Positions 9,204 to 25,461 of a stretch of 64,000 bases of DNA are shown in pieces; position 1 is the stretch's first letter; each line of letters starts with the position of its first letter. The stretch is from assembly GCF_900215325.1 (NCBI RefSeq), contig NZ_OCMS01000002.1, positions 1 to 64,000 of the forward strand. The letters are read 5' to 3'. The notes beneath the pieces are model-generated. The model was not told the origin of the DNA, did not search any database, and saw only the letters and a program-made list of their open reading frames with translations. This DNA is from Fibrobacter sp. UWB16 (lineage in GTDB: Bacteria > Fibrobacterota > Fibrobacteria > Fibrobacterales > Fibrobacteraceae). The translations under genes and the position numbers were made by a program.

Positions 9204-9441
9204 TATTATTAATAAATGCGTGAAAAAATAACTGTATAAGAAATTATTGTTAATCGTCGAGAGAATAAAGCGTCGGCCAAGGATGGGGAGGGTGCAGGGA
9301 GGGGCCCGTGCGGCCTTCGCAACTCCGAGCTGGGGCCCCGCCCGCATGACGTACTTTTATTATTAAAAAAATGATGAGGTGCTGATTCTTTCAGCATAAA
9401 AATGGTACTCAAAAAAAATCTCAAAAATTTGCGTTAGCCTA
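9204..9441. other. Intergenic region with a GC-rich hairpin
   Basis: No gene is seen. An AT-rich start is followed by a GC-rich block (9256-9350) with GGGGCCC (9301-9307) facing GGGCCCC (9333-9339) and ending in CGCATGAC, which recalls the right end of repeat A. The rest is AT-rich up to the promoter at 9442. Confidence 0.5.
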
Positions 9442-9476
9442 TTGACTTTGAGTCAAAAATTGAGTACATTTGGAGT
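9442..9476 (+). promoter_or_regulatory. Strong leaderless-type promoter with a palindromic -35 region
   Basis: TTGACT (9442-9447), a 17-nt spacer and TACATT (9465-9470) make a good sigma70-like promoter. The ATG follows after 6 nt, so transcription would start at the start codon. The -35 is the left arm of a perfect inverted repeat, TTGACT-TTG-AGTCAA (9442-9456), a plausible operator for autoregulation by the encoded HTH protein. Confidence 0.65.
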
Positions 9477-10304
9477 ATGGACAAGTTTATCGACATATTC
9501 CAGTTTACTCATTTCCGCAAGTACTTGGATGAATACCAAGCGGCTCGTGTGCAGACCGACCCTGAATTTACTAGGGCTGGTGCATGCGCTTTGCTTGGCC
9601 TCCCCAAGACTCGCAGTTACTATAACGATATCGTCAAAGGAAAAAAGCTGACCGGTCGCATGATTCCCAAGTTCGTGGAAGTACTTGGACTCAATAAGAA
9701 AGAGGCCAAGTACTTCGAAACGATGGTGAACTTTGACCAGGCGAAAACGACGACGGAACGCAATGCGTTTTTTGATGAACTCATCAAGCAGCATCCGGAT
9801 CCGCACCACATCTTGAATGAAGATGCCTACGAGTATTACAACCACTGGTATAATAGCGTGTTGTTTACGGCGTTGGATGTGATGGATGTTTCGGATGATC
9901 TTGAACCGATCCAGAAGCGCATTTTCCCGAAGGTCTCCGTGGGGACGTTGAAGCGTTCGCTCGAACTACTGGAGCGCATTGGCTTTGTGCGCAAGAATGA
10001 GGATGGCTTTTGGAAAAGCTCTCGCGATTCGGTGAGCAGCGGAGCCTTCAATAATAGTGACTTGGTGCGTCAATACCAGTTGCAGTGCTTTGAACTTTCG
10101 AAGCAGGCGCTGCTTGCCGATGACGAAAATGCGTCGGACATGGGAACGTTCACGTTCAGTGTTTCGGATGATGCGTATAAAGAAATTGCCTTGGAAATTC
10201 AGAATTTGAAAGCCAAGGTGCGCAAGATTATTACGCAAGACAAGAAAGAGGCGACTGGGGTACACCAGTTGAATATTCACTTGTTTACAAATTTGAAGAA
10301 GTAA
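9477..10304 (+). CDS. TIGR02147/DUF4423 family putative regulator (copy 1)
   Basis: The 275-aa protein belongs to a paralogous family described from Fibrobacter. The N-terminal signature is YQFTHFRKYLxEYQAAR (here FQFTHFRKYLDEYQAAR). Residues about 33-75 (FTRAGACALLGLPKTRSYYNDIVKGKKLT, then IPKFVEVLGL) look like a helix-turn-helix; the later Tyr-rich block EYYNHWYNS and the C-terminal half form the DUF4423 part. It is close in sequence to the protein at 24339-25178. A lipoprotein gene follows 17 nt downstream behind a Shine-Dalgarno site, as with the other copy. A DNA-binding role is inferred, not shown. Confidence 0.85.
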   Translation: MDKFIDIFQFTHFRKYLDEYQAARVQTDPEFTRAGACALLGLPKTRSYYNDIVKGKKLTGRMIPKFVEVLGLNKKEAKYFETMVNFDQAKTTTERNAFFDELIKQHPDPHHILNEDAYEYYNHWYNSVLFTALDVMDVSDDLEPIQKRIFPKVSVGTLKRSLELLERIGFVRKNEDGFWKSSRDSVSSGAFNNSDLVRQYQLQCFELSKQALLADDENASDMGTFTFSVSDDAYKEIALEIQNLKAKVRKIITQDKKEATGVHQLNIHLFTNLKK

Positions 10305-10321
10305 ATCGAGGAGGATTTGTT

Positions 10322-11362
10322 ATGACTTCTAATAAATTTGCAAAGTTGGTTGTTGCTATGGCTGTGTTTGGTCTTGGCTTGTTTACGTCCTGTAGTGAGA
10401 GTGATGGCGGTGTGGCATCATCGTACAGTGAAACGCAGACGGGCAAGCCTGTGATTCGACCGGGAATGCCTATTGCCGAATTGGATACGAGCTATATCCA
10501 CAAGGTTGTTCATAAAGATGAAAATCCCTGCTATGTGGTTCTTCCTAAGAGTGCTGTTGATGAAGAATCAGATGGTGTAAGTGAAGATGATAGTCTTGAG
10601 GTTGTTGAAATTGTTGAGGTGATGGATTCTATTCCATATTATCGTGTTGCCTGTGGTGCTCATGATGATATTTATATGTATATAAAGATAAAAGCTCAGA
10701 TTGTTGATTCTGAAGGCTTGCCTGTAGAGGGGGCGATTGTTTATGAAAATTATTGTTCTTTTGATGATGAACGTTGTCAGCATGTTACCGATAAAGATGG
10801 TTATTTCTACATAGATAACGTACATTACCTTACGTATTTGCAAATGGATGGTCCTGAAAATAGATATCTTCCTGATTATGAACTGGTCCAGTTGCGCGCA
10901 CTTTCTGCAGATTTTAGTCTAGGTGCAAATGTCTTTAAGGAATTTTCGAAAGCTACGGTTGATGTTGTTGATGATGAACCTGTGGCTGATTTAGGAACAA
11001 TAGTTGTGGAACCCGTGTATACGGCAAAATTTTATTTGGATTCTCTTTTGGCGAATGAAGTGGATAGTACTTCGGAATATGATGAAATCGATAATGAAAA
11101 ATGGAATGAGAATATGACGAAAAATCTCGGGGAAGATGGTAATGGTATTTGCGTTGCCTTGAATGAAGTTGTTCTTCCCCCAGGTGTTCGGTTTGTTCCG
11201 TCTTTATTCTATCCTTGCTATAAGGTGACGGATGAAGACCGTAAGAATGGGTATATCGTCTTTTTTGGTCTGCCTGAAGGCGATTATAGAATTGATATCG
11301 ATGGATTTGGAAATAAGCATGTCCCTGATTTTATTGTTTCTAGGGAGGAAAACGTTAAATAA
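10322..11362 (+). CDS. Lipoprotein with a carboxypeptidase-regulatory-like domain (module 1)
   Basis: The 346-aa precursor has a signal peptide and lipobox LFTSC (Cys24). Residues about 118-165 (KAQIVDSEGLPVEGAIVYE, then VTDKDGYFYIDNV) follow the CarboxypepD_reg-like beta-sandwich pattern, and the remainder is acidic and unrecognised. It is probably attached to the outer membrane or exposed at the surface. A clear ribosome site (GAGGAGG) precedes the ATG. It forms an operon with the TIGR02147 gene; the same pairing is found at 22870-25178. The coding sequence is more AT-rich than neighbouring housekeeping genes, which may mark a fast-changing or acquired gene. Confidence 0.72.
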   Translation: MTSNKFAKLVVAMAVFGLGLFTSCSESDGGVASSYSETQTGKPVIRPGMPIAELDTSYIHKVVHKDENPCYVVLPKSAVDEESDGVSEDDSLEVVEIVEVMDSIPYYRVACGAHDDIYMYIKIKAQIVDSEGLPVEGAIVYENYCSFDDERCQHVTDKDGYFYIDNVHYLTYLQMDGPENRYLPDYELVQLRALSADFSLGANVFKEFSKATVDVVDDEPVADLGTIVVEPVYTAKFYLDSLLANEVDSTSEYDEIDNEKWNENMTKNLGEDGNGICVALNEVVLPPGVRFVPSLFYPCYKVTDEDRKNGYIVFFGLPEGDYRIDIDGFGNKHVPDFIVSREENVK

Positions 11363-22743: not shown

Positions 22744-22862
22744 AAAAGGAGATGCCCCGTCGGAGCGGGGCATGGCATTGTGGATTGTGACTGGATCCTT
22801 CACTTCGTTCAGGATGACGGATCAATGTTTAGGATGACGCGCCTGTTGTTCAGGATGACGAA
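22744..22862. repeat. Repeat A copy followed by repeat B and its partial duplicates
   Basis: Repeat A at 22744-22774 (GATGCCCCG..CGGGGCATG). Repeat B, minus orientation, at 22790-22819 (ACTGGATCCTTC..TTCAGGATGACG). Two extra right ends, TTTAGGATGACG and GTTCAGGATGACG, follow at about 22828 and 22848. Confidence 0.75.
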
Positions 22863-22869
22863 GTGTTGA

Positions 22870-24342
22870 TTACTTCTGCAACAAGTAGTATGCGGAGAGC
22901 CAGGCTTGCAGGCGTTCCCAGCCTTCGTCGTCAGCTTGGACAATCGCGGATTGCTTGAGCGAGAACACGGTCAAGTTTGTGAGCTTGTGGTTACCGATGG
23001 CGAAGCCCGGGAATATGATGAAGGCGTTTTTCATCTTGGTGTCTTCGACGGTCTTTCCATCGATGGCGATAACGATATGGTTTGCCTTGATATACATGGC
23101 GTAGTGATGGCGTTCCCCGTCCAAGACATTGTGGCAGTAAGAGTTACCGAGTTCAGGGAACGAATCCGTATACGTCGAGTCCTTTGAAACTCTCCTGTAG
23201 AAGTTGGCACAGAGCTGTTCTGGCTTTTCACCTACCCTCAGACGGTATGTGACATCGTTTTCTTTTGAATCAATAATCAAAGAGTCGCCTTCTGCAATTT
23301 TGCTGCCGTCTTCTTCAATCCAGAAGCTGATGCCGAGGCTATTGCTTGTCGTATCCGTGATGAATGTATTCATGAAATCACCTTCGGTGACGGACAAACC
23401 TGATTTGGATTCGGCAAACACTCTGGAAATTTCCGAAGTCTTGTAAACGGATTCGCTTGATGTGACTGTGAATTTGTATGTACCTGCGTCAATGCTTGGA
23501 ATTGCCGTGAAGTAAAGCGACGAGTCCGCATCGTTTTCAGCTTTAAAGACTGCGAGCGAGTCTCCGTTGTTGTCAATGAGAACTGGGTTCTTGACCTTCG
23601 TGGGGATTGTTACCGGAACAATCATGGATTCAAGAGTCTTCTTGCCGTTCAGCTTCTTTGCTGCGCTCAAGGCTTCTTCCGGAACGGTGATCGTTACGAA
23701 TTCTGAAGAGACTTCGAGCTTTTCGCCAGGGGTGAAGTCCCACTTGACGTTGCGCGTCGAGGTGTCGCGACCGGCGCCTCGGATGAGGATGATGTTCGTG
23801 AATTCTGCAGGCGGAATTTCATCGAGCTTGACGGTTCCCGACTTGAGGTCGCTTTCGCTGACTGCGGTGCAGTTGAGCGTACCTGTGATGCAGAGCGTGT
23901 CGCCCTTGTCAAGATCGTACGTGCCGAGGTCTAGTTCGAGGCTTGCATTCTCTTCGAGCTTTGCTTCGGGGACGTTGAGCGTCTGCAGGTCGGTCTTGGA
24001 GTCTTCGACGGTGATCGTCTGGTAGGCGGACTGCGTGTGTTCCGTATTGCTGATCTGCAAGGCATAGTCACCGGCAGCGACGCTGTCGATGGTGTACTTG
24101 CCGTCTTCGTCCGTGGTGGCGGTCTTGATGGGGGCCATGCGGGCGGCGACGTGGTTTGCCGAGAGGAGGCTTACTTTTGCGCTTACGACCGGGGATCCGT
24201 TTCCGTCCATGACGACGCTTGCGATGGTCGTGCCGGATTCAGTTTCCGTGAGTACGCCGGCGTGGTTCTCGTCGGAGCAGGCGGAGAAAATTGATGCGAG
24301 GGCAAAAATCCCTGCTGTATTTAAAATCTTGAAATTCATCAT
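22870..24342 (-). CDS. Lipoprotein with carboxypeptidase-regulatory-like domain (module 2)
   Basis: The 490-aa precursor has lipobox IFSAC (Cys22). Residues about 38-115 form a CarboxypepD_reg-like domain (ASVVMDGNGSPVVSAKVSLL, then TTDEDGKYTIDSVAAGDYAL). A middle region of repeated beta segments follows, and the C-terminal 170 residues look like a concanavalin/LamG-type fold (ISFWIEEDG, YRLRVGEK, HHYAMYIKANHIVIAIDGK), with a paired Cys (LCANFYRR, NSYCHNV). It may bind polysaccharide at the cell surface. The ATG overlaps the stop of the TIGR02147 gene (ATGA), and the ribosome site GGAGG lies inside that gene's last codons. Same arrangement as 9477-11362, though the two lipoproteins differ outside the shared domain. 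Confidence 0.75.
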   Translation of the reverse strand: MMNFKILNTAGIFALASIFSACSDENHAGVLTETESGTTIASVVMDGNGSPVVSAKVSLLSANHVAARMAPIKTATTDEDGKYTIDSVAAGDYALQISNTEHTQSAYQTITVEDSKTDLQTLNVPEAKLEENASLELDLGTYDLDKGDTLCITGTLNCTAVSESDLKSGTVKLDEIPPAEFTNIILIRGAGRDTSTRNVKWDFTPGEKLEVSSEFVTITVPEEALSAAKKLNGKKTLESMIVPVTIPTKVKNPVLIDNNGDSLAVFKAENDADSSLYFTAIPSIDAGTYKFTVTSSESVYKTSEISRVFAESKSGLSVTEGDFMNTFITDTTSNSLGISFWIEEDGSKIAEGDSLIIDSKENDVTYRLRVGEKPEQLCANFYRRVSKDSTYTDSFPELGNSYCHNVLDGERHHYAMYIKANHIVIAIDGKTVEDTKMKNAFIIFPGFAIGNHKLTNLTVFSLKQSAIVQADDEGWERLQAWLSAYYLLQK

Positions 24343-25178
24343 GCGTTAACCTCCGGATCGAGGTTAGAGAACAGGTGCAGGTTCATTTGGTAAACGCCGT
24401 TTGCCTTTTCATTGTCCTCGCTGATGATGCGTCTTGCCTTTGCCTTGAATTCTTGGAGTTCGGATTCAAGTTTTTTGTAGGCGTTGTTCGATATGCTGAA
24501 CGTGAGCGTGCTCATGACGGTCGGCATCTTGGGGCGCGTGATGAGCGCCTGCTTCGAAAGTTCAAAACATTGCAGTTGGTACTGCTTGATGAGTTCCGCA
24601 TTGTTGTACGGACCGCTGGAGATGGATTCCTTGGTCGGCTTCCAGAAACCAGATTCGTTCTTGCGGGCGAGGCCCAACTTTTCCAAAAGGGATAACGAGT
24701 CCTTAATCTTTCCGAGTGGAATTTTCGGGAAGATTCTCTTTTGTACCGGTGTCAAGTCATCTGTAACGTCCATAGCATCAAGAATAGCAAACATAGCGCT
24801 ATGGTACCAGTGATTATAGTATTCGTAAGTGTTCGAATCGAGGATATGCTGCGGATTGGGGTGCAGGTGCAACAGTTCTTCCATGGCGGCGCTGCGGGCC
24901 GTTTCGGTTTTTGCCTGGTCGAGCTTCACCATGGTTTCGAAGTACTTGGCGGCCTTCTTGTTGAGGCCGAGGACTTCGATAAACTTGGCTGTCATGCGGG
25001 GGCTGACCTTTTTCCCTCTGAGAACATCGGCAAAGTAGCTGCGTGTCTTGGGGAGGCCGAGCATATTGCAGATCCCGGTACGGGTGAATTCCGGGTCGGA
25101 TTGGACTCTGGCCGCCTGGTATTCTTCCAAGTACTTGCGGAAGTGCGTAAATTGGTAAATGTCGATATAGTTTTCCAC
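24339..25178 (-). CDS. TIGR02147/DUF4423 family putative regulator (copy 2)
   Basis: The 279-aa paralogue of the protein at 9477-10304 has matching blocks along its whole length: IYQFTHFRKYLEEYQAARVQ, EFTRTGICNMLGLPKTRSYF, EVLGLNKKAAKYFETMV, EYYNHWYHSAMFAILDAMDV, IQKRIFPK-like VQKRIFPKI, and a C-terminal QMNLHLFSNL. It uses a GTG start with TATATT 6 nt upstream. The N-terminal third has helix-turn-helix character. It is translationally coupled to the lipoprotein gene downstream. Likely a dedicated regulator of that lipoprotein, or part of a sensing pair; no experimental role is known to me. Confidence 0.85.
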   Translation of the reverse strand: MENYIDIYQFTHFRKYLEEYQAARVQSDPEFTRTGICNMLGLPKTRSYFADVLRGKKVSPRMTAKFIEVLGLNKKAAKYFETMVKLDQAKTETARSAAMEELLHLHPNPQHILDSNTYEYYNHWYHSAMFAILDAMDVTDDLTPVQKRIFPKIPLGKIKDSLSLLEKLGLARKNESGFWKPTKESISSGPYNNAELIKQYQLQCFELSKQALITRPKMPTVMSTLTFSISNNAYKKLESELQEFKAKARRIISEDNEKANGVYQMNLHLFSNLDPEVNA

Positions 25179-25190
25179 GTGCTTAATATA
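25179..25190 (-). promoter_or_regulatory. Leaderless-type promoter of TIGR02147 copy 2
   Basis: Minus strand: TATATT (25190-25185), AAGCAC, then GTG at 25178. The 6-nt spacing is the same as for copy 1 at 9477. Confidence 0.55.
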
Positions 25191-25310
25191 ATATTTGTGA
25201 GAACTAAGATGAGAACATTTTTTGAGAAAATACTAGAAATGTGATATTTGACGGAAAAGCCTGATGATTACATTTTTCTTACACTGGTTTGAGCGTGGTT
25301 CAATGATTTT

Positions 25311-25340
25311 ACTGGATCCTTCGCGTTGCTCAGGATGACG
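25311..25340 (-). repeat. Repeat B (minus orientation)
   Basis: ACTGGATCCTTCGCGTTGC followed by TCAGGATGACG. It is followed at 25345-25417 by CTTACTTC-type short direct repeats, before the nuo promoter region (TATCTTTAG near 25430). Confidence 0.75.
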
Positions 25341-25461
25341 GTGTCCTTCTTACTTCCTACCGTCTATATTCCTCGTTCAATCGCTTACTTCTTACTTCCC
25401 GAAGCTTACTTCCTACTATTAAATTTCTATCTTTAGGCGCGAATTTTATGAGGTAACTCCT

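Follow-up and report, generated by a model that had tools for sequence, protein, structure and literature searches.

In the PULs of Bacteroidota a regulator (SusR, HTCS or ECF-sigma) is tied to SusCD and surface glycan-binding lipoproteins and to polysaccharide-degrading enzymes, and these systems exist in many substrate-specific copies. RRNPP regulators such as PlcR, Rgg and PrgX sense peptides encoded next to them. The modules discussed here consist of a regulator of the TIGR02147 family and a lipoprotein, and they resemble both systems in part. Like PULs they appear to link a regulator to a surface lipoprotein and degradative enzymes in many substrate-specific copies; however, the regulator family is unrelated, and the enzyme genes are scattered instead of being clustered with the regulator. 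The SusD family is not represented among the 33 module lipoproteins of this genome. Like the RRNPP systems the modules have a regulator, here with a predicted XRE-type HTH, and a cognate exported product encoded adjacently, but the regulator is predicted to have a winged helix rather than a TPR domain, and its partner is a large lipoprotein, with no peptide known. A third comparison is with FISUMP (TIGR02145), the Fibrobacter succinogenes major paralogous domain, which is carried by 9/33 module lipoproteins, whereas the others carry CarboxypepD_reg (8/33), LamG, pectate lyase or CBM (CBM_4_9) domains. The module is defined by its regulator and an N-terminal lipoprotein motif and not by this payload.

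Fibrobacter is a leading degrader of cellulose in the rumen. The regulation of its cellulases and other enzymes has been described as not well known (PMC6204037). An earlier note on this DNA knew of no described function for the TIGR02147 family, and none was found in the literature searched, which does not mention TIGR02147 and mentions DUF4423 in passing only. The text of the Fibrobacter proteome and transcriptome papers PMC6851124, PMC4619616 and PMC6204037 holds nothing relevant on the module genes or a regulator. For the TIGR02147/DUF4423 family the features set out below, namely the pairing with a lipoprotein, the private operators and the enzyme targets, appear to be undescribed. Taken jointly, they make it likely, in our judgement, that these proteins are one-component regulators which control their own expression and link a surface lipoprotein that binds glycans with enzymes that degrade polysaccharides.

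Two modules are found in the window, the whole stretch of 64,000 nucleotides that was analysed. Copy 1, on the plus strand, has a regulator of 275 amino acids (9477-10304; TIGR02147 350.9 bits, DUF4423 84.3 bits) and, after a gap of 17 bp, a lipoprotein of 346 amino acids (10322-11362) with lipid Cys24 in the lipobox TSC-SESD. Copy 2 is on the minus strand. Its regulator of 279 amino acids has a GTG start (24339-25178; TIGR02147 283.7 bits) and overlaps by 4 bp the gene of a lipoprotein of 490 amino acids (22870-24342; lipid Cys22, lipobox SAC). Both regulators match TIGR02147/Fsuc_second (NCBIfam) and DUF4423 (PF14394) well above cut-off; for TIGR02147 the curated cut-off is 50 bits, and model positions 2-271 (copy 1) and 2-270 (copy 2) are covered. 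These coordinates bear out what the earlier note had said of two modules with the same order and tight coupling, and the two regulators, which it called close paralogues, are 62% identical. It had also placed a carboxypeptidase-regulatory-like domain in both lipoproteins and held that they differ outside it. The domain stands for copy 2 (CarboxypepD_reg 46.5 bits, cut-off 32.3 bits) but is sub-threshold in copy 1 (17.2 bits), and the lipoproteins do differ, but direct comparison gave no significant similarity inside the domain either. A repeat like GTCATCCTGAACGAAGTGAAGGATCCAG has intergenic copies at 22800-22860 and 25310-25350 of the window, on both sides of the copy-2 module.

The AlphaFold2 model of the copy-1 regulator (pLDDT 88.6) has an XRE-like HTH (residues 13-87), a linker helix, a winged helix (residues ~112-213) and a C-terminal helix. 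Its fold matches are antitoxin-type HTHs and winged helices of the MecI/BlaI/ArsR type at Z 7-8 (7.8 for the HTH, 7.5 for the winged helix), and the XRE HTH also has a weak PDB profile match (E = 0.014). Because all Z scores are below 8 and Foldseek gave no match at E < 0.001 with this model, the predicted HTH and winged-helix fold is plausible rather than certain. No TPR is seen in the model, and no RRNPP/TPR structure is among the regulator's fold matches, a list that can miss such a domain. No ligand-binding domain was recognised. The Fibrobacterota TIGR02147 proteins would be modelled as one-component transcription factors with an XRE-type HTH and a winged helix.

The pairing of regulator and lipoprotein is general in this genome (3.56 Mb, 9 contigs). 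It has 34 TIGR02147 genes, and in 33 of these loci a lipoprotein gene comes next on the same strand, with its start at -32 to +17 bp relative to the regulator stop, where a lipoprotein is a protein with a type II signal peptide and a lipobox Cys as judged from sequence with no dedicated predictor. ATGA overlaps between the two genes occur among the modules and point to translational coupling. The only orphan (C1:1011245-1012060) has no lipoprotein gene after it; a terminator-like hairpin lies immediately 3' of this gene, and large secreted proteins are encoded convergently. Tandem arrays of four modules each are found at C1:1284686-1295885 and C3:131172-150785, with two or three consecutive lipoprotein genes in several modules. 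The earlier note had spoken of a recurring two-gene module and of a family strongly expanded in Fibrobacter; the first was an understatement, and the second agrees with the 34 copies here and the maximum of 85 in another genome.

The family was found in 111/121 Fibrobacterota genomes and 36/38 genera. Among 58 modules sampled from other Fibrobacterota genomes, 57 had enough downstream sequence, and all 57 have a lipoprotein partner (49 by a strict lipobox filter and 8 by eye). A second scan, with a genome profile from a 6-member alignment and with some loci that overlap those of the first count, gave a partner at 43/44 Fibrobacterota loci (33 by the filter, 10 by eye). In relatives from Bdellovibrionota/Oligoflexia (L296, L298, L304-L313), by contrast, a lipoprotein partner is present in only ~2/12, one of these relatives (L298) having its lipoprotein gene at -7 bp. 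Given 43/44 loci against ~2/12, the coupling seen in these sequences is a trait of Fibrobacterota that the family as a whole does not share. The idea of one regulator for one lipoprotein, as first proposed from the window, is therefore supported within the phylum, and neighbouring genes there leave almost no member without a lipoprotein; in Bdellovibrionota ~10/12 relatives are without one and the idea fails.

The copy-1 promoter (9442-9470, plus strand) is near consensus, with -35 TTGACT (9442-9447), a spacer of 17 bp, -10 TACATT (9465-9470) and 6 nt to the ATG. In copy 2 (minus strand) the -35 is weak and the -10 TATATT (25185-25190), conserved in orthologs, lies 6 nt from the GTG start. Both are promoters of the leaderless type, as had been noticed from the window. 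A TANNNT that ends 5-8 nt ahead of the start codon is found in 24/33 modules vs 5.8 +/- 2.2 in shuffles. The geometry is partly a habit of the genome, since 17/58 other genes (~29%) in the same loci (L031-L056 and the window) have a similar -10; this weakens the leaderless promoter as a hallmark of the modules, though they are enriched in it. Its presence in ~29% of other genes whose upstream DNA is free hints at a genome in which mRNAs are often leaderless.

At these promoters, comparison of genomes brings out short operator-like elements. The element of copy 1, GTACTCAAAAAAAATCTCA (9405-9423, plus strand), is conserved in 25 Fibrobacter genomes, and conservation upstream of copy-1 orthologs covers a block of ~75 bp and does not extend into the DNA beyond it. 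A count over 61 Fibrobacter genomes gives 27 sites for the pattern GTACTCAAAAAN{1,4}TCTCA and 0 for its reversed form; 26 of the 27 stand immediately before copy-1 orthologs. The palindrome TTGACTTTGAGTCAA (9442-9456, plus strand) and TTGAGTAC (9460-9467, plus strand) overlap the copy-1 promoter, and this overlap of elements with a near-consensus promoter fits repression. The element of copy 2 (25198-25228, minus strand) consists of TTCTCAAAAAATGTTCTCA (25210-25228) and a third TTCTCA (25198-25203), at 12-13 bp spacing. TTCTCA is present upstream of 30/30 copy-2 orthologs, in at least two copies in 25, with 64 in total vs 1.7 in shuffles, and the repeats are mostly 12-13 bp apart. The candidate operator has the sequence form TGTTCTCAAAAAANTTCTCA; genus-wide, the pattern GTTCTCAAAAAN{1,4}TTCTCA has 38 sites, 9 of them at the regulator, with 0 in the reversed control. 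Module-3 orthologs have the element GTGTTCCCAAAAA, 7/8 sites being at their own regulator. Module-2 orthologs share GTGTGGAC / GTGTGGACTTTTT, with AGTGTGGACTTTTT as the candidate operator form. On this comparison each regulator type (four ortholog groups) has its own element.

The earlier note had thought of phase-specific surface display. Could such conservation be reconciled with phase or antigenic variation of that display? There are many paralogs, and the lipoprotein bodies of copy-2 orthologs diverge fast (27% identity vs 84% for the regulators). However, the promoters keep their orientation and sequence over 25-30 species, the A8 tract of copy 1 has the same length at every matched site before the regulator except one, no invertible or slipping element is seen, and conserved operators imply regulated expression. 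The search for phase variation found no supporting feature, and this explanation is highly improbable.

It has also to be considered that the elements serve a different protein, a general carbohydrate regulator that merely counts the TIGR02147 genes among its targets. Binding by TIGR02147 proteins is deduced from sequence comparison, and the elements of several modules look alike (T-x-x-[CT]-CAAAAA). Every ortholog group examined nevertheless has its own element, and the copy-1 element is absent from 35/35 sampled genomes that have no copy 1 (Fisher p = 3e-16 for its association with the copy-1 gene). A general regulator is thus an unlikely explanation. That a private operator is found together with its own regulator supports control of one promoter by one regulator, and we infer that the regulator itself binds this DNA and is autoregulated.

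For two of the four regulators the element extends to enzyme genes. In this genome TGTTCTCAAAAA occurs five times: twice before a GH5 cellulase gene, once before a GH74 gene, which also has a second, partial copy, and twice elsewhere. The GH5 gene (L046:5990-8446, minus strand), which is convergent with module 12, has two copy-2-type elements 196 bp apart. Away from the regulator, 29 copy-2 sites were found in 22 genomes, and all but one lie beside genes for secreted plant-cell-wall-degrading enzymes, namely GH5 (11, five of which were assigned from individually read loci), GH74 (6) and the pectate lyases PL1 (4) and PL9-like (7). The GH74 targets match GH74 xyloglucanases in the PDB with a best E of 3e-102. 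A distant copy-2-type site is present in 21/40 genomes with copy 2 vs 1/21 without it (p = 1.3e-4), with related species not independent in these site counts and many of the genomes being MAGs; an exact distant site is missing from about half of the copy-2 genomes, and in one genome, G126, there is a site but no detected copy-2 gene. The element of module 2 stands before GH43 and PL11 genes as well as before the regulator of that module. When orthologous sites are counted once, the copy-2 and module-2 regulators together have 10 target families, of which 8 are CAZymes (binomial p ~8e-7); the background of 11% is an assumption built on the 172 CAZyme genes of strain S85 (PMC6204037), with two neighbours considered at each site.

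For copy 1 and module 3 the strict patterns gave no enzyme targets, their single extra matches being in or at coding sequence. A separate enzyme regulon for copy 1 was looked for with strict and 3-mismatch searches and rejected; one match of the latter is a copy-2-type GH74 site. The elements at the GH5 and GH74 genes lie on both sides of the apparent promoter, upstream and downstream, a placement compatible with either looping repression or activation. The substrate specificity that the earlier note had thought reasonable is supported indirectly, the grounds being an operator shared with plant-cell-wall enzyme genes in two of the four regulators and a lectin-type fold predicted for the copy-2 lipoprotein.

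In the AlphaFold2 model of that lipoprotein (pLDDT 81.8) a transthyretin-like domain (residues 38-131, Z 11.7) and a lectin-type jelly roll (residues ~302-490) are seen, the latter with galectin, CBM40 and laminin-G-like matches (Foldseek, VIA). Matches to the binding domains of clostridial neurotoxins reflect the jelly-roll fold shared with galectins, CBM40 and laminin G and say nothing about toxicity. From this model the copy-2 lipoprotein probably binds polysaccharide at the cell surface, a location that we infer for the module lipoproteins.

What the lipoproteins have in common is a segment that follows the lipid-bearing Cys; its approximate pattern is C-S-[DE]-x(n)-[VT]-A-G-x-[TS]-E-[TE]-x-[NS]. 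When a profile of the lipoprotein N-terminus was compared with the genome, the top 38 matches were module lipoproteins, and lower-ranked matches have mostly a signal peptide and Cys-Ser-Asp alone. In copy 1 the motif is VASSYSETQTGKPV (10412-10453, plus strand; residues 31-44), and most copy-1 orthologs read have VASS[YF]SET[QN][TS]GKP. In copy 2 it is AGVLTETESGTTIA (24220-24261, minus strand; residues 28-41), which includes AGVLTETESG, and ETESG is invariant in 28 aligned orthologs. Across copy-2 orthologs from 27 genomes, mean identity is 84% for the regulator and 84% for the 12-residue motif vs 24% for the signal peptide and 27% for the body; for the 11 closest genomes these values are 97.5, 100, 59 and 62%. 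The codons of the motif differ at synonymous sites, and the constraint therefore acts on the protein; a role of the motif at the DNA level was rejected for this reason. The motif probably serves as a signal for sorting or docking.

A different role for this segment has been weighed, in which the regulator senses, in RRNPP-like fashion, a peptide cut from its own lipoprotein, either the signal peptide or the post-Cys motif. Cognate pairs in tight operons and the strong protein-level constraint on the motif are consistent with it, and a Mantel test over 40 divergent modules gives a closer covariation with the regulator for the post-Cys segment (rho 0.23, p = 0.001) than for the body (0.15) or the signal peptide (0.095). 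The predicted C-terminal domain of the regulator is however a winged helix, with no TPR seen in the model, and we know of no import route for such a peptide. The version with the signal peptide is disfavoured by its low identity in copy-2 orthologs against that of the regulators, and a signal-peptide pheromone of the enterococcal type was dropped as the main idea, the signal peptides being the least conserved part of these lipoproteins. Peptide signalling is doubtful on balance. We give as little credence to the wider proposal that each regulator recognises its own lipoprotein through the post-Cys motif, as a surface-released and re-imported peptide or as the precursor, in dozens of insulated channels of regulator, motif and operator. 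If true, one cell could use these channels to signal which of its glycan-binding surface lipoproteins is engaged and to turn on the matching polysaccharide-degrading enzymes.

Translational coupling by ATGA overlaps and a constrained N-terminal segment would also be expected if the regulator monitored the unexported lipoprotein precursor in the cytoplasm and tuned expression to export capacity. This feedback leaves unexplained the operators common to cellulase, xyloglucanase and lyase genes, and the signal peptide itself is not conserved; we think it quite unlikely.

In the preferred reading, that of regulators coupling surface glycan binding to degradation, each regulator would control its own two-gene operon, in which the second gene encodes an outer-membrane lipoprotein. 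The regulator would recognise short repeats that make up a private operator at the promoter of its own gene, usually a leaderless one, and this binding would set the level of the regulator and of the translationally coupled lipoprotein. Some regulators, copy 2 included, may bind the same operator before scattered genes for secreted enzymes (cellulase, xyloglucanase, pectate lyases). The lipoprotein would bind polysaccharide on the cell surface, with the post-Cys motif as its sorting or docking signal, and the module would in this way tie the degradative enzymes to a matching glycan-binding protein on the surface. Glycan-responsive modules of regulator and surface lipoprotein would be a system of a known kind, new in their uncharacterised regulator family and dispersed target genes, and by analogy the module would be the functional counterpart of the PUL regulators of Bacteroidota.

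The post-Cys motif defines a lipoprotein class that extends through the phylum, and its function is directly testable. Because the elements of two of the four regulators also precede genes for plant-cell-wall-degrading enzymes, the comparison suggests that the uncharacterised TIGR02147 family switches fibre digestion on and off. A large regulator family would thereby gain a specific and testable job, for which candidate operators and the copy-2 and module-2 target genes are now named.
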